A stretch of DNA of 64,000 nucleotides, taken from contig FNPA01000009.1 in assembly GCA_900107185.1 (NCBI GenBank), positions 1 to 64,000 on the forward strand, given 5' to 3'. This DNA comes from Ruminococcaceae bacterium YAD3003. GTDB taxonomy: Bacteria > Bacillota > Clostridia > Saccharofermentanales > Saccharofermentanaceae. This document shows, in pieces, positions 29,459-38,506 of the stretch; within the stretch, counting starts at the first letter, position 1; each line of letters begins with the position of its first letter. A model generated the notes under the pieces. That model ran no database searches. It was not told where the DNA came from and worked only from the letters and a program-made list of their open reading frames with translations. The position numbers and the translations under genes were made by a program.

Positions 29459-32155
29459 TCATTCGACATTCTTCAGCGCTTCGTCCATCGGTATCTTCTT
29501 GATCCTTATGAAATCAATGACCGATACGGCCGCATATCCGACGAGCATGTAGACTATGGACATCGCCATGGATTTGGTTGACATATAGAATGTAAACCAT
29601 CCGTCCATCTGCAACATGAATGCCCTGAACACATAGATAAGAATAACGTATCCCGCACCAAAACCCAGGAGCGTAAACAGCAACACGATAAAAGCAGTAG
29701 GAATCATGTACAACGCACTGATCTCGGAATTCTTGAATCCCAATATCTTAACCATCGAGATCGAGTGTTCATTACGCTCAATGATTATCTTTGTTAAGAG
29801 GAATATCAACGCAGCAGATAGAACCAGGAGAACATACTGCGCTACCACCATGAATCCGCCCATTGAATGCATGAGCTGTGTAGTAACTTTCACGATGTCA
29901 TCCTTATCTATAACTGTTGCAATATACTTCTCATCGATATCAGTGATTTCTTCGTTCGAGAAATAACCGGTAAACGATCCTTCTTTCTTATCGAAAACAC
30001 TGATGAAATTATCGTTGGGCATGAACACTGCGATACCGCCTTCGTAATCGACAATTCCTGATACAGTAAACTCGTAACTCTTGTTTGCGAACTCTTCGGA
30101 AAGAGTAATCTTATCACCTGTATCAAAACCGAATTTATCCTTAAAAGCAGACGAGATATATACCTCACCATCGTTAAGTTCCGCACCGATAACAACGTAC
30201 TTACTGCCGTCTTCAATACCGTAAACAGTAACTGCTTCTGTGGTTCCTCCGCTGCCTCTGCCCTTAATAAATGAAGTAACATTCTTCTCATACAGCAGTG
30301 ACGTGGAATTGAATTTCTCAGCATCTTCATTTGCTGTAACGAGTTCATTTCCATCATCATCTTTTGTTCCTGCCAACATGTACTGATACTTCGCAAACAA
30401 CATATCAGGCGCTCTGTCACCATAGTGGTTAAGTGAATCCGGAAGGCCGAACGCAAAGCACAACATAACTTCAACAAACACAATACCGAAGATAAGGATC
30501 GCGTAGTTAGGGATATTCTGGAACAGAATTCTTAATCTGAATCTGTTCATGAAAGACCACGCAGGAATCCTTCTGGCCTTTGTTCTTTTCGTTCTTCTTA
30601 AATCATGTCTTAAGAACTTCAGAGGACTTAACTGAAGCTTTCTGACAATAACAAAAAGATTGATAAGAAACATAAGCGACAGCGGGATAACCGTTGTTTT
30701 CACGAGTGCTACAGGACTCCATACAACTCCGCAATTCGGCAGACTGTAAGTTTCAAAATAGATGTTTACAGCCACTTCTTTAAACCATGTGTAACCCAGA
30801 ATATTACCAATGGCCGCACCTATCAGGGTTACGACAACAGGAGTTGACAGATAGTGGAAGATGAGCTCACCTTTGGTATAACCGGACGCGCGCATCGTTC
30901 CTATTACTGATGCTTCTTTATCGATCGTATTGCTGATCGTAATCGCGAAAATAAATGCGATTACTGCAATGAGAATATAGCAGAGAATTTCCGTTCCGGC
31001 TGCGTCACCTTCAACGTCAGAAGGTGCGAAATTAGATGCCTGGCGGTAACACTCAGGGAGAAAATCTTCGAGGTCGTTATCGAACACCACAGACTGTGTG
31101 ATAAGTGCCTTCAAAAATTTGTCCGCATAATCTGCCTGAGCTACTTTTCCTGAAGGCTTTACATCGTAGAAATATGCATAACTGTAATGTGTTCTCGTTC
31201 TTAATGAATCAAATCCCTCAGGCGTTACCATTGCAACGTTAAACCCGAAAGCATCAAACATCAGATCGTTGTTATTCTCATGCAAAGAAGTGTAGTTGAT
31301 ATAGGACAACAGACCGACTACTTCGAACTCTTTCCCTCCGACTAAGATCGTGTCACCTATCTTGATCCCAACATTGCTCGCATGCATTCTGTCGATTGCA
31401 ATCTCATTATCTTTTTCAGGTGCACGGCCTTCATTGAACGACGCCTTATCTACTTCATCCGTGCTCTTAAATACTCTTACGGCCGCGTCCTTTACACCGT
31501 CTTTATCGAAATCTTCATCTTCGTTTTTGAAGAAGTGTTCGTATACGGTTACCTTTACAGGCGAGAAATCAGGATCATCGAGATTATATTCTTCAACCGT
31601 TTCGTCCCATTTTTCATCGACAGCTTTTACGACTTCTTCGTGTGCTTCTTTATATGCATCAGAGACAGCTTCTTTGAACTCATCCGAATTGCGAGCTTCT
31701 TCTAATGCATCTTCGTAATTTTCTTCCATAAAGGTATCGATCTGACTCTGGATCATGTCCTCATCAGTGATACCATATGCTTCACACTGCGCACGCACAG
31801 CTGTCTCAATACCTTCTGTTACCTGCTTTTCGAGTTCTTCGTCGATTGCTTTGGCAACTTCTTCATCAGCTTCTTCATATCCCTTATTAATGAGATATTC
31901 TCTTACGTCAGCCATGTCGCCTTTCTCAATGGCTCCGATAAGTTCTTCTGATGCCTTGTTCTTAAACTCGAAAGAACCATCTTCCAGTTTTAATGTAATC
32001 TTTCCGGTGTTGATTGCAGCGAGCATGCTGTCACGTCCGACGGACATTCCGGAAACAAAGCCGATCATGAGCACCATGAAAACAACTATTACCAGATATT
32101 TCTGCCAATCCCCCACCAGTTCTTTGGGGATTCGTTTGATAAGCGGATTTTTCAT
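29459..32155 (-). CDS. FtsX/MacB-type ABC transporter permease
   Basis: About 898 residues from the ATG at 32155, which has AAGGAGG 8 bases upstream. A longer frame from 32236 overlaps the ATPase gene. One membrane segment near the N-terminus is followed by a large extracytoplasmic domain with an acidic, helical coiled-coil-like insertion (about 60-210, rich in Glu and Ala). Then come FtsX-type membrane helices (about 405-430, 455-480 and 500-525), a second extracytoplasmic domain and three C-terminal helices. The duplicated layout is that of lipoprotein- or peptide-exporting MacB/YknZ-like permeases. It works with the ATPase encoded 13 bases upstream. Substrate unknown; the upstream riboswitch hints at a metal link. 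Confidence 0.87.
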   Translation of the reverse strand: MKNPLIKRIPKELVGDWQKYLVIVVFMVLMIGFVSGMSVGRDSMLAAINTGKITLKLEDGSFEFKNKASEELIGAIEKGDMADVREYLINKGYEEADEEVAKAIDEELEKQVTEGIETAVRAQCEAYGITDEDMIQSQIDTFMEENYEDALEEARNSDEFKEAVSDAYKEAHEEVVKAVDEKWDETVEEYNLDDPDFSPVKVTVYEHFFKNEDEDFDKDGVKDAAVRVFKSTDEVDKASFNEGRAPEKDNEIAIDRMHASNVGIKIGDTILVGGKEFEVVGLLSYINYTSLHENNNDLMFDAFGFNVAMVTPEGFDSLRTRTHYSYAYFYDVKPSGKVAQADYADKFLKALITQSVVFDNDLEDFLPECYRQASNFAPSDVEGDAAGTEILCYILIAVIAFIFAITISNTIDKEASVIGTMRASGYTKGELIFHYLSTPVVVTLIGAAIGNILGYTWFKEVAVNIYFETYSLPNCGVVWSPVALVKTTVIPLSLMFLINLFVIVRKLQLSPLKFLRHDLRRTKRTKARRIPAWSFMNRFRLRILFQNIPNYAILIFGIVFVEVMLCFAFGLPDSLNHYGDRAPDMLFAKYQYMLAGTKDDDGNELVTANEDAEKFNSTSLLYEKNVTSFIKGRGSGGTTEAVTVYGIEDGSKYVVIGAELNDGEVYISSAFKDKFGFDTGDKITLSEEFANKSYEFTVSGIVDYEGGIAVFMPNDNFISVFDKKEGSFTGYFSNEEITDIDEKYIATVIDKDDIVKVTTQLMHSMGGFMVVAQYVLLVLSAALIFLLTKIIIERNEHSISMVKILGFKNSEISALYMIPTAFIVLLFTLLGFGAGYVILIYVFRAFMLQMDGWFTFYMSTKSMAMSIVYMLVGYAAVSVIDFIRIKKIPMDEALKNVE

Positions 32156-32168
32156 TCTCCCTTCCTCC

Positions 32169-32885
32169 TTACCACTCGAGCTCGGAAGCAGGAATTTTCT
32201 TATCGTTGATATCGTTGTGGCGGACAACACCGTCACGGAGCTTGATAACGTGATCAGCCATATATCTGATGGCTTCGTTGTGTGTAACCATAATTACGGT
32301 ATTGCCGAACTTCTGATTACAGTTCTCGATGAGGCCGAGAATTTCTTTCGATGTTTTGTAATCGAGGGCACCTGTAGGTTCGTCACACATAAGAATGTCC
32401 GGATTCTTAACAACTGCACGACCTATTGATACACGCTGTTGCTGACCTCCGGACAACTGATTGGGGTACTTATATTTGTGATCTTCCAGACCCAGTGTCG
32501 AGATAACATCATCTACATTGAGCGGGTGATCCGACAGATAGGCCCCGACCTCGATATTCTCTTTTACATTCAGATTCGGGATAAGGTTATACATCTGGAA
32601 AACATAACCGAGGTGTTTTCTCCTATACATGGTGAGTGCCTTCTCATCCATATCCTTGAGCTTATCGCCGTTAATGCTAACGTAGCCGGAATCCGGGGTA
32701 TCAATACCGCCGATAATGTTAAGGAGAGTGGATTTACCCGAACCTGAAGGTCCTAAGAGGACACAGAATTCGCCTTTGCTGACAGTGAAGTCCATACCTC
32801 TGAGTACATCCTGTTTTGCTTCACCGGTACCGAAACTTTTCCTCAGATCGTGAATCTCGAGGAACTTCTTTTCTTCTTCGCTCAT
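32169..32885 (-). CDS. ABC transporter ATPase (MacB/LolD type)
   Basis: About 238 residues from the ATG at 32885, chosen because GGAGG lies 5 bases upstream; a TTG 12 bases earlier overlaps that site. Motifs are complete: Walker A GPSGSGKSTLLN, Q-loop FQMYNLIPNLNV, signature LSGGQQQRVSIGRA, Walker B ILMCDEPTGALD and H-loop VTHN. The NLIPNLNVKENIE segment is typical of the LolD/MacB group that pairs with FtsX-like permeases. It is the first gene after the terminator of a riboswitch-like leader. Confidence 0.94.
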   Translation of the reverse strand: MSEEEKKFLEIHDLRKSFGTGEAKQDVLRGMDFTVSKGEFCVLLGPSGSGKSTLLNIIGGIDTPDSGYVSINGDKLKDMDEKALTMYRRKHLGYVFQMYNLIPNLNVKENIEVGAYLSDHPLNVDDVISTLGLEDHKYKYPNQLSGGQQQRVSIGRAVVKNPDILMCDEPTGALDYKTSKEILGLIENCNQKFGNTVIMVTHNEAIRYMADHVIKLRDGVVRHNDINDKKIPASELEW

Positions 32886-32900
32886 AAAAGCCTCCAAAAT

Positions 32901-32926
32901 AAAAAAGATATGACCGAAGCCATATC
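32901..32926 (-). terminator. Leader terminator of the riboswitch-like element
   Basis: On the minus strand GATATG, the loop region GCTTCGGT and CATATC are followed by TTTTTTATTTT. It sits only 6 bases before the ribosome site of the ABC ATPase gene, far too close to end an upstream gene, so it is a regulatory terminator in the 5' leader. Confidence 0.88.
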
Positions 32927-32947
32927 AAAACTATCTCGGAGAATCGT

Positions 32948-33051
32948 CATGTATAGCTTCGCAGTTATACATGAGTCTCGCAAATTAAAACAAGCCAGGT
33001 TATTACCAGGATGTTGACTTGTTGCGCGTGAGCGCTTGCTACTCCCTCATG
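32948..33051 (-). ncRNA. yybP-ykoY-like (Mn2+) riboswitch upstream of ABC exporter
   Basis: On the minus strand the leader starts CATGAGGGAGTAGC (33051-33038) and closes with GCGAGACTCATG (32981-32970), the two conserved ends of the yybP-ykoY aptamer with a P1 helix CATGAG/CTCATG. Between them are a short GCGC hairpin and an arm bounded by AACAAGTC and GGCTTGTT, again as in that family. A hairpin at 32948-32973 re-uses the 3' strand of P1. It also exposes CGAAGC, which could pair with GCTTCG of the terminator. Ligand-stabilised P1 would thus favour read-through. Family call from memory of the consensus. Confidence 0.75.
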
Positions 33052-33150
33052 GGATGATGTTTTTATGCTAACAACCGATATCTTTTATGTCAAGGTGAAC
33101 ATTAACAAAAATATTTTTGGAATACCTTTTTTATTCCATCACATTTCCTA

Positions 33151-33681
33151 TTAACCGGCAGCCGGATCTATTACCGGAATATTTATTCCGTTCTGCCTTA
33201 AGTATTCGAACATCGGGGCTTTATATTCAATAGGTACCACCATAATTGATATCTCCGGATCTTCCGGAATAAACAAGAACAAAGTCTTATAAACTCTTAT
33301 AGTTTTTATCTTCTTCCAAAATATCTTTACCATAATGCCATCTTTAATGTGGGTAATGCCATACTTATCGAGATCATAGTTTCCATCGAACTTCGCGTTC
33401 TTCTTATATTTCGAAAGATTTATTGCAGTCTTAATGTAAGGAAGCGAGAGTCCTCCAAGACAACCCATCAAAAATGCAAGGAAGTATGACTTTGTTACGA
33501 ATATCAGAACCAGGGCATTAAGCATACCTGTGCCGCAAAAGACGATCATCAGTGTATTGATCAGTTGGGCATCCTTGACCTTTGCAGTGGGGGTCTTACG
33601 GATAGATGCCATCTGGAGACTGATATTTGCAAATTCGTTGATGTATGCGGCCGGATTCTGCGTGTCTAAATGTATCTGCAT
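33151..33681 (-). CDS. YcxB-like membrane protein
   Basis: About 176 residues from the ATG at 33681, which has GGGGTG 7 bases upstream; an earlier in-frame start at 33702 lacks one. Two hydrophobic segments (about 43-60 and 65-85) precede a C-terminal domain. That domain has KYGITHIKDGIMVKIFWKKI and ending FEYLRQNGI, the layout of YcxB-like proteins in which a short membrane hairpin anchors a PH-like domain. It is the last chromosomal gene before the integrated element. Function unknown. Confidence 0.65.
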   Translation of the reverse strand: MQIHLDTQNPAAYINEFANISLQMASIRKTPTAKVKDAQLINTLMIVFCGTGMLNALVLIFVTKSYFLAFLMGCLGGLSLPYIKTAINLSKYKKNAKFDGNYDLDKYGITHIKDGIMVKIFWKKIKTIRVYKTLFLFIPEDPEISIMVVPIEYKAPMFEYLRQNGINIPVIDPAAG

Positions 33682-33772
33682 ATTGTTCACCCCATGATTC
33701 AATTACAGTTAATGATTACTTCTCGTCCTGCCAAATACCGGTATTACACAACTTACATTATAACAAGGAAAT

Positions 33773-35698: not shown

Positions 35699-38506
35699 TT
35701 ATTCTTTGGTCAGTTCCTGATACATCTTCATAAGCTCTGCAACTATCTCCGGTTCGCCCATATCGCGCGCAAACCCGTAAGCATCCATAACTGCCTTGTC
35801 GTTAGCTTCGTGCGCGATACGGAGCTCCACAGGCATCTTATCGGGATCATACAGTTCTGCGAGACTCTTGTCCGGATACAACGCGCGAGCATCGAGTATT
35901 CCCTGAGCTGTCTGCTCTATGATTGCTTTCTGGTCATCGGTAGGGTTAGGCCAAGGGAAGTTGTTATATGTTATTTCCGCAGAATATTGATAGCTCGGTC
36001 CGTATCTGCTTGATGTAACTCTCATCCAAGCCATATGTACTGTTGATTCAATGACTCCAAAATGATATACAGTAGCCCCTGGTAAAAGCATTAATTTTTG
36101 ACTACAAAGAGACCTATCATCAAGAAAACCTATTGGTATAAAATCTCGTGTTCCAGCAGAAACAACAGGAATAACCATAAAAACACCTTGTGGCATATTT
36201 TCAACTAAGAATCGAGTAGGTGTTTCTGCTAATTTTTTTGTCTGTGGACGCTTACTTTTGAATCTTGCTTGCTGTACAGCTGAAACAACCTGCATGCACT
36301 TAGGCATGGTTTCCAATTCCTGCGGCGAACAATTCCCTAACCATAAAATATACAATCCATCATCTCTACTATTATTGTTAATAAATTCATTTCCTCCAAC
36401 CCAGGAAAAGAAGTATTTTTGCGATTCTGGTTCGGCTTTAATAAAATGCATCATCTCATCTTTGGTAAAGAGATAATTATCAAAATCCAATAATTGGTTG
36501 CCAATACCTATTTTGGGGGAAGGGCATATCGAACTTGTTCTTTTAGGCAAATATACATCATCTGCATCTAACAAATATGCGTTGATGTTTTTTGCTTTCT
36601 CAACAAGATTACTATCAAAAATTCGTTTTTCTATTGTAAGTGTTTTATTTGAGAAACCTATTATTACACAATAAACCAAAGCTTCGTTGTCTGTATCGTT
36701 ATTCCACTTAAATGTTCTATATGCAAAGTCAAATTTAATGTTAAATCTTTCAAAAACGGGTTTCCATACGCATGTTGTTTGAACACCTTGAACAACAGAG
36801 TTTGTTGAAACGAACGCACACATTATAGATGTGTTCTGAATGTATTGAGCACCTTTCCAAAACCAAGCTGCAACATAATCAATATCGCCTGTTCCACTAA
36901 GAGTTTTTCCTTTGGAATCAACATATATTTCGTTGAGCTCTGTCCTTTGTTCGGGGGTGCGATTCTTTCTATCCACAAACGGCGGATTTCCCATTATGTA
37001 AGACACTCTTGAAGGCTCTACAAGGTCATTCCAATCGAACCTCAAAGCGTTCTCGCAAATGATGTTGGCCCGGTCGTCTAACGGAAAGTCTTTCTCGTCG
37101 AGGTCGAGCAAAAGCATATAGTCCTTGTTCGCTTTCAACCTTGAAATCCATAGCGCCGTCTCCGCAACGGATACAGCAAAGTCGTTTATCTCAATACCGT
37201 AGAATTGGTCAAGTTTAATCCTCAGTTCAACCTCACCCTCGACACTACTGTCGAAGAGAGACATCTGCTTTGATTTGTATTCCTTCAGAACTGCATACTC
37301 CAATCGCTTCAGGCAGATGAACGTCTCCGTCAGGAAATTGCCGGAGCCGCATGCAGGGTCGAAGAACACCAGCGAGCAGAGCTTCTCGTGGAACTTCCTA
37401 TATCTATTCCGCCGCTTTATAACTGATAGTTCTTCGTCAGTTCTTATAGCATCAAACTCAGCCTTGAGGTCATCAAGGAACAGCGGATCAATTACCTTAT
37501 GAATGTTTTCAGGCGACGTATAGTGCATACCGCCCTTGCGTCTTGTCTCTGGATTCAACGTACTCTCAAAGATACCGCCGAAGATAGTCGGAGAGATATT
37601 AGACCAGTTAACCGGCAACGCAACCTTGTTAAGCAGGAAGTCCTTAATCTCCTGCGTGAAGTTCGGTATTATAACCTTCTCTTTGAAGAGTCCGCCGTTA
37701 ACATACGGGAACACCTTTATATCTTCATCGTACTCATCACGCTCAGCACGCGGTTTATCTAAGTTCTCAAACAGATGCTGAAGCTTGATTCTGATATTCG
37801 TCGGGTCCACGCGGGTAAGATAGTTCGCAAACGCATCAGGCTCACCGAATAATCCTGCATCTTCGCAGAACAGACAGAATACGAGACGTACGCATAGAAC
37901 GTTCAACGAGTGTTTTGCTTCGTCAGAATCCGGGTCGTGATACTGTGAACGCAACATATCATAGAGTTCACCGATAAGACGACCGGCCTGCTCCGATACT
38001 TCTTGTTCTTTTCTAAGTCGACTATTACCCGGGTCTACAATGCAGCCCAAATACTCCGGGTGCTCGACCAAATCTTCAAGAGCGAACTCAAAAGCATTAT
38101 TTACGAGCTCTTTATCACCGTACTTGCTACGGTCATAAACCCTAAACGATTTGAAATTGCAGGTAATGAAATACTTCGGTTGTTCTGTAAGCGGTAATGA
38201 TGCCGCATAGTCCTGAACTTGTTGCAACGGGGTTTTGAGTTCACCCTGACGCATCTCCGCTTTGTCTAAATCAATCTCAATACCCTTCTGCTCAATCATA
38301 ACATCGGATTGTCTAATCCAAACGTCAATATAACCGCCTGTTGAGACATGATGTTCAAAGAGGACTGTGTCGTTATGTTCGTAACCTAATACGTTAGTAA
38401 GTAGCGATAACCAAAACTGTTGTGTCTCGCCCTTTTCGTAGCCTCTACCCTTCCAAGTTTCCACAAAAGACTTTCTTGATTTTTTGTCCCGATACGCCAT
38501 TCCCAT
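35699..38506 (-). CDS. MmeI-like type IIL (IIG) restriction-modification enzyme
   Basis: 935 residues. The N-terminal nuclease part shows a PD-(D/E)XK pattern, with D61 in GYIDVWI and E72-x-K74 in IEQKG. An inter-domain spacer follows, then an N6-adenine methyltransferase with motif I DPACGSGNFL (about 373) and catalytic motif IV NPPF (about 508). A target-recognition region and a short C-terminal domain finish the protein. One polypeptide would thus cut and methylate DNA, defending the host or stabilising the element. The part coding for residues about 520-820 (36.04-36.95 kb) is visibly more A/T-rich than the flanks, suggesting exchange of the recognition domain. Confidence 0.88.
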   Translation of the reverse strand: MGMAYRDKKSRKSFVETWKGRGYEKGETQQFWLSLLTNVLGYEHNDTVLFEHHVSTGGYIDVWIRQSDVMIEQKGIEIDLDKAEMRQGELKTPLQQVQDYAASLPLTEQPKYFITCNFKSFRVYDRSKYGDKELVNNAFEFALEDLVEHPEYLGCIVDPGNSRLRKEQEVSEQAGRLIGELYDMLRSQYHDPDSDEAKHSLNVLCVRLVFCLFCEDAGLFGEPDAFANYLTRVDPTNIRIKLQHLFENLDKPRAERDEYDEDIKVFPYVNGGLFKEKVIIPNFTQEIKDFLLNKVALPVNWSNISPTIFGGIFESTLNPETRRKGGMHYTSPENIHKVIDPLFLDDLKAEFDAIRTDEELSVIKRRNRYRKFHEKLCSLVFFDPACGSGNFLTETFICLKRLEYAVLKEYKSKQMSLFDSSVEGEVELRIKLDQFYGIEINDFAVSVAETALWISRLKANKDYMLLLDLDEKDFPLDDRANIICENALRFDWNDLVEPSRVSYIMGNPPFVDRKNRTPEQRTELNEIYVDSKGKTLSGTGDIDYVAAWFWKGAQYIQNTSIMCAFVSTNSVVQGVQTTCVWKPVFERFNIKFDFAYRTFKWNNDTDNEALVYCVIIGFSNKTLTIEKRIFDSNLVEKAKNINAYLLDADDVYLPKRTSSICPSPKIGIGNQLLDFDNYLFTKDEMMHFIKAEPESQKYFFSWVGGNEFINNNSRDDGLYILWLGNCSPQELETMPKCMQVVSAVQQARFKSKRPQTKKLAETPTRFLVENMPQGVFMVIPVVSAGTRDFIPIGFLDDRSLCSQKLMLLPGATVYHFGVIESTVHMAWMRVTSSRYGPSYQYSAEITYNNFPWPNPTDDQKAIIEQTAQGILDARALYPDKSLAELYDPDKMPVELRIAHEANDKAVMDAYGFARDMGEPEIVAELMKMYQELTKE

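Follow-up and report, generated by a model that had tools for sequence, protein, structure and literature searches.

We identified in the window, the 64,000-nucleotide stretch of DNA analysed here, a minus-strand leader that most probably acts as a transcriptional Mn2+ riboswitch of the yybP-ykoY class and turns on an operon for an ABC ATPase and an FtsX-type permease at high Mn2+, a reading to which we give a probability of about 0.85. The novelty is the target, an ABC-FtsX operon in place of the usual manganese pump, and not the riboswitch class; association with metal riboswitches has earlier served to name transporters, namely MntP and the P-type ATPases. A literature search of incomplete coverage, which leaves an earlier report possible, found no FtsX or ABC target of a Mn2+ riboswitch and no paper naming yybP-ykoY together with MacB. 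A Mn2+ riboswitch before a MacB/YbbP-type ABC pair would link poorly understood envelope machines to metal stress and provides a testable claim on the role of the FtsX-type ABC pairs that are abundant in gut and rumen Clostridia. The partner, an ATPase-permease pair of predicted type VII fold, occurs in at least two Clostridia families and also under other apparent metal regulators, and the leader points to compact members of the Mn2+ riboswitch class, a branch to which the current Rfam model is blind.

Leader layout and aptamer class

On the minus strand, the leader is flanked by a 183-aa ORF (33151-33702), for which no Pfam family was found, and the ABC ATPase gene (ATG at 32885). A predicted sigma-70-type promoter (33065-33093) consists of TTGACA at 33093-33088, a 17-bp spacer and TAGCAT at 33070-33065, and TTGACA with TAGCAT or TAGCCT stands at the same place in window-type leaders L003, L004, L005, L008, L009 and L071. 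The compact aptamer that follows (32968-33053) lacks P4; its ends, GAGGGAGTAGC and GCGAGACTC, are closed by P1, in which CATGAG (33046-33051) pairs with CTCATG (32970-32975), and its internal arm is ACAAGTC/GGCTTGT. An intrinsic terminator, GATATGGC-TTCG-GTCATATC followed by T6 (32902-32927; -8.3 kcal/mol), has an 8-bp stem in 9/9 window-type leaders, and a Shine-Dalgarno sequence, GGAGG (32891-32895), sits between it and the ATG. Folding of the leader was more stable than that of 200/200 dinucleotide shuffles (z -4.33). Every part listed in a preliminary description of this DNA (conserved yybP-ykoY ends, P1, internal arm, and terminator before the ribosome site) was recovered on the minus strand, as were the hairpin competing for the P1 3' strand and the CGAAGC/GCTTCG pairing that it had proposed.

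The Rfam model RF00080, the check proposed in the preliminary description, did not match the window leader at its gathering score, nor at E<=10. The E. coli K-12 mntP leader, a founding member of the yybP-ykoY class, also falls below the RF00080 cut-off of the same release (41.6 of 45 bits), so this test is insensitive and its threshold cannot serve to delimit the class. The covariance model R1, for which 19 congeneric mntP leaders were the sole input, found the window aptamer at 69.0 bits (E 4.2e-16), its sole match at E<=1 in the 64 kb, and scored 23 distinct ABC leaders of the window type and of a second type at 51-71 bits. A combined model covering both leader types (R2), which has the window leader among its training sequences, gave that leader 91 bits and, in the whole of the window's genome, matched nothing beyond it and an mntP leader. 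The latter lies directly upstream of a MntP gene (Pfam Mntp 7.8e-38), coincides with the genome's one sub-cutoff RF00080 match (30.5 bits), and shares GAGGGAGTAGC, AAGTCAACAT-CTGGTAATA, CCTGGCTT and GCGAGACTC with the window leader.

Kinship to known members extends beyond the genome. The window leader shares GGGAGTAGC, GTCAACAT-CT, TGGC and GCGAGAC with the E. coli mntP leader, and the conserved L1 and L3 loop sequences and helices P1-P3 are all present, the helices being kept in 27 leaders. MntP itself is the target of a nearly identical leader (CATG..CTCATGTA) in g5, a sister genus. Compared with the E. coli mntP and L. lactis members of RF00080, the window leader has the same loops, P1-P3 layout and P1-based control of a terminator, with mntP as a sister target in its own genome; unlike them, it has no P4 and a short P3b, escapes the Rfam model, and couples a P1/anti-P1/antiterminator/terminator relay to an ABC-FtsX target. 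With the full RF00080 model, orthologous and divergent ABC leaders gave matches under the cut-off (L032 33.2 bits, L024 27 bits, others 20.9-24 bits). Given the E. coli mntP leader's own score, the mntP paralog in the genome, the R1 score and these sub-cutoff matches, we attribute the missing match to the model and not to the sequence. By its sequence kinship the window leader appears to be a bona fide, if Rfam-invisible, member of the Mn2+ riboswitch class, and the class proposed earlier is supported by the mntP paralogy, the sub-cutoff matches of orthologous ABC leaders and the regulon that the models retrieved.

The genes downstream of related aptamers are the known partners of the class plus the ABC operon. 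In a sample of 391 Clostridia genomes searched with the model covering both leader types, 117 had a match, and the downstream gene was read at 64 sampled places: 31 MntP, 24 P-type ATPase, 5 Na/Ca-type exchanger, 2 ABC ATPase, 1 GDT1 and 1 other. MntP, P-type ATPases, Na/Ca-type exchangers and GDT1 are all known types of Mn2+-exporter genes. Within the order but outside the family, 11 readable places comprised 3 MntP and 8 P-type cation ATPases, assigned by sequence similarity with two checked in Pfam. At individual loci, a Mn2+-type aptamer was seen directly before a Na/Ca-exchanger family gene (L102; Pfam Na_Ca_ex 2.5e-67) and before an ORF reading like an SPFH/stomatin protein (L301), a putative and unusual partner.

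Alternative pairings and the proposed switch

The 3' strand of P1 is common to P1 and to an anti-P1 hairpin, TCATGTATA/TATACATGA (32947-32974), which forms 9 pairs in 9/9 sequences and is assigned to the ligand-free state (-9.9 kcal/mol, versus -5.7 for the P1 duplex alone). The loop and 3' arm of this hairpin, CGAAGCTATA (32952-32961), can alternatively pair with TATGGCTTCG (32915-32924), the 5' half of the terminator stem-loop, which lengthens the CGAAGC/GCTTCG pairing to 10 bp. An extended hairpin around the terminator, CTCCGAGATAG/TTATTTTGGAG (32893-32942), was found in folds, with TCTCC invariant in 9/9 leaders, and carries the OFF hairpin on to CTCC/GGAG. Judged from sequence and folding, P1 is predicted to exclude terminator formation in this expression platform.

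These pairings are conserved. All leaders compared, 9/9 of the window type and 18/18 of the second type, preserve P1, in which some A-U pairs have become G-U. In the nine window-type leaders, the ON fold pairs 98.9% of its cells and the OFF fold 99.3%, and these shares fall to 26-49% and 22-55%, respectively, when partners are slid. The anti-P1 hairpin shows one U-A to U-G change among 9 sequences, and in L130 an antiterminator G-C is replaced by A-U, a compensatory change of both sides that the terminator stem does not account for because the 3' base sits in the terminator loop. The high similarity of the leaders keeps covariation thin: among 9 sequences, two pairs show double changes. The second group, in 18 congeners, builds the same relay from other letters, with antiterminator AACTATAC/GTATAGTT opposed to terminators of the form CCAAGTATAG../CTGTACTTGG. 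The simple on-switch suggested earlier, combining P1/anti-P1 competition with the CGAAGC/GCTTCG pairing, thus gains support from conservation and from one compensatory change.

When the leader was folded at increasing lengths, P1 was closed at 91 nt, the anti-P1 hairpin formed at 116 nt, P1 with the antiterminator was the minimum free energy (MFE) fold at 146 nt, and the terminator prevailed at full length. Since the full-length MFE structure is the OFF fold, the ON state depends on kinetics and ligand, and the length-dependent folds are as expected, in these predictions, of a kinetic switch whose outcome depends on how stable P1 is. In the mechanism we propose, the ligand-bound aptamer would hold P1 closed and block the anti-P1 hairpin, so that the freed CGAAGCTATA could pair with the terminator 5' half and allow read-through. 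Without Mn2+, TCATGTATA/TATACATGA would capture the P1 3' strand and the terminator would form, its extended stem also hiding the ribosome site. The L. lactis member works with the same polarity: it is an ON switch in which Mn2+ makes the P1.1 switch helix more stable and keeps transcription from terminating, and its A41U mutation abolishes Mn2+ binding (PMC11087558). The mntP leader of the window's genome, in which P1 competes directly with the terminator (CTCAAGGC...GCCTTGGG-T-rich), is likewise predicted to be ON.

The ABC operon, its relatives and their regulators

The first gene of the operon (32169-32885, minus strand, start ATG at 32885) encodes an ABC ATPase of the MacB/LolD/YbbA/BceA type (Pfam ABC_tran 1.5e-35), whose neighbours in NCBIfam and the PDB are MacB, YbbA, BceA and DevA, below equivalog cut-offs. 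The second (29459-32155, minus strand, likely start ATG at 32155) encodes an 898-aa FtsX-type permease (Pfam FtsX and MacB_PCD) with two FtsX-type TM modules, a duplicated FtsX, and two extracellular domains. A PDB sequence search with the permease returned nothing at E<=0.01. Its AF2 model (21 sequences, pLDDT 79.9, pTM 0.64) is closest to E. coli YbbAP (9ge6; Foldseek 1e-15; VIA Z 18.2, rmsd 6.8, 540 residues) and BceAB (8s5g; Z 19.5, rmsd 10.9, 486 residues), and its C-terminal half to the heme exporter HrtBA (Z 15.7). From this model the permease is predicted to have a type VII ABC fold like that of YbbAP, BceAB and HrtBA, and the hallmarks of that type, an FtsX-type permease with MacB_PCD-like extracellular domains and a cognate MacB-type ATPase, are present. 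The MacB/FtsX-type exporter named in the preliminary description is therefore borne out by the Pfam families and fold matches. We rejected MacB proper, a fused chain of nucleotide-binding domain and permease, on the grounds that the chains are separate and the ATPase scored 197.7 bits against a MacB cut-off of 966.

The pair shares its MacB/YbbA/BceA-type ATPase with YbbAP, BceAB, MacB, LolCDE and HrtBA, and differs from these systems in having only ~10-16% identity, no NCBIfam equivalog, a leader predicted to respond to metal and, in the window clade, an added acidic helical insert. This insert, at permease residues ~70-200 in the first extracellular domain, is a feature of the window clade, is partly present in L147, and is absent in other orthologs. 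No TesA- or MacA-like partner was recognised adjoining the window's ABC pair.

The riboswitch recurs with the operon. A permease at least 64% identical was found in 31 genomes; the aptamer lies ~0.8-1.1 kb upstream of it in 27 of them and is missing in the other 4. Among relatives that carry a name, the closest are MAGs from rumen and gut, labelled Saccharofermentans sp. and Clostridiales, and Ruminococcaceae bacterium AB4001. Downstream of window-type leaders lie the orthologous ATPase and permease genes, except in five congeners, where a short ORF comes first and the ABC-FtsX pair behind it is a different one. Far-diverged aptamers of the L032, L057, L098 and L099 types likewise precede ATPases 58-78% identical to the window's, and in two members of a second Clostridia family (L312, L332) the aptamer stands before an ATPase ~61% and a permease 33-36% identical.

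Some relatives have a short ORF and a second promoter between riboswitch and ABC genes, so the riboswitch is not always a direct ABC switch. At L142, L143 and L145 (loci L005, L008 and L007), the order is a window-type riboswitch, an ORF of 20-24 codons (MSR...), GTTAGC palindromes and then the different ABC-FtsX pair, which has a 1022-aa permease. At the g5 loci L176, L184, L187 and L193, a riboswitch with a long P2 arm precedes a short ORF with its own GGAGG, which the riboswitch may serve, and then a second promoter with both palindromes ahead of the ABC genes.

Two palindromes were found on ABC promoters where the riboswitch is missing or distant. One, CATATGAA-N6-TTCATATG, also precedes ArsR/SmtB metalloregulator genes (two were tested and both exceeded the cut-off of NCBIfam NF033788) and Zn/Cd-type P-type ATPase family genes, of which one was scanned. 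The other, GTTAG-N6-CTAAC, precedes several genes and operons of the window's genome: mntP, where it overlies the -35 box, a ZIP transporter, FeoAB, a flavodoxin and a second ABC-FtsX operon. These sites, candidate operators by their sequence, look like an Fe/Mn regulon, possibly of DtxR type. These putative operators suggest that the ABC operon belongs to metal homeostasis whichever the switch. Loci in the range L161-L193, upstream of riboswitch-less ABC operons, and the L006/L007 promoters have CATATGAA-N6-TTCATATG or near matches just past the -10 box, and this palindrome was also found at SAM-methyltransferase-like ORFs. GTTAG-N6-CTAAC has 11 sites in the window's genome (for example L223, L230, L231, L236 and L238), including two in tandem at FeoAB and others before TetR/ABC-exporter genes, and 7/11 lie within ~50 kb of contig C12.

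Ligand, polarity and possible role

Kinship of the aptamer, conservation of the alternative pairings and recurrence of the gene partner are direct observations; we infer Mn2+ as the ligand, the ON polarity and a role of the operon in metal stress. It is unlikely that the same aptamer fold is tuned in the ABC-linked leaders to another divalent metal, such as Ca2+, Fe2+, Zn2+ or Co2+. Altered metal preference is suspected among yybP variants (PMC7266159), so Mn2+ may not be the window leader's ligand, and the ArsR/SmtB-type palindromes that riboswitch-less ABC operons have in common with Zn/Cd ATPase genes mean that the operon may answer other metals too. Against a changed ligand, the window aptamer retains the segments shared with E. 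coli mntP and closely resembles the second aptamer of its own genome, the one before mntP, and the near-identical g5 leader controls MntP.

Repression of the ABC operon by Mn2+ would agree with a 2024 review that labels the class OFF switches (PMC11477304), but we consider it very unlikely, as P1 and the anti-P1 hairpin cannot coexist, closure of P1 releases a strand that pairs with the terminator 5' arm, and the mntP leader of the same genome and the L. lactis member (PMC11087558) are both ON, the former by prediction. It is scarcely credible that the leader is a riboswitch relic or a chance resemblance, serving only as an attenuator with an aptamer that no longer senses: the window copy's lack of an RF00080 match would suit such a history, but the leader is conserved in over 40 orthologs and paralogs, whose loops vary, keeps P1 and both alternative helices intact, and is retained before two different ABC operon types.

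The ABC pair would most likely, like other type VII systems, spend ATP on moving or extracting a substrate at the outer face of the membrane. An E. coli YbbAP study describes hydrophobic compounds being extracted from the membrane (PMC12646458). Pumping of bare Mn2+ ions would be out of character for the type VII fold, and a membrane-partitioned metal complex, as for HrtBA, or an envelope component would fit better. Of the new Mn2+-linked transporter or metal-dependent surface export envisaged in the preliminary description, a metal link is probable and direct Mn2+ pumping is disfavoured by the predicted fold. Tentatively, and with somewhat less than even odds, this could be a new Clostridia metal-stress ABC system, placed by lineage under a Mn2+ riboswitch or under ArsR/SmtB-type or Fe/Mn-regulon (GTTAG) operators, in which type VII removal of a metal complex or a metal-damaged envelope component would detoxify the cell. 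Elsewhere in the window, positions 35699-38506 (minus strand) encode a Type IIG restriction enzyme-methyltransferase (PADLOC REase_MTase_IIG, E 3e-304).
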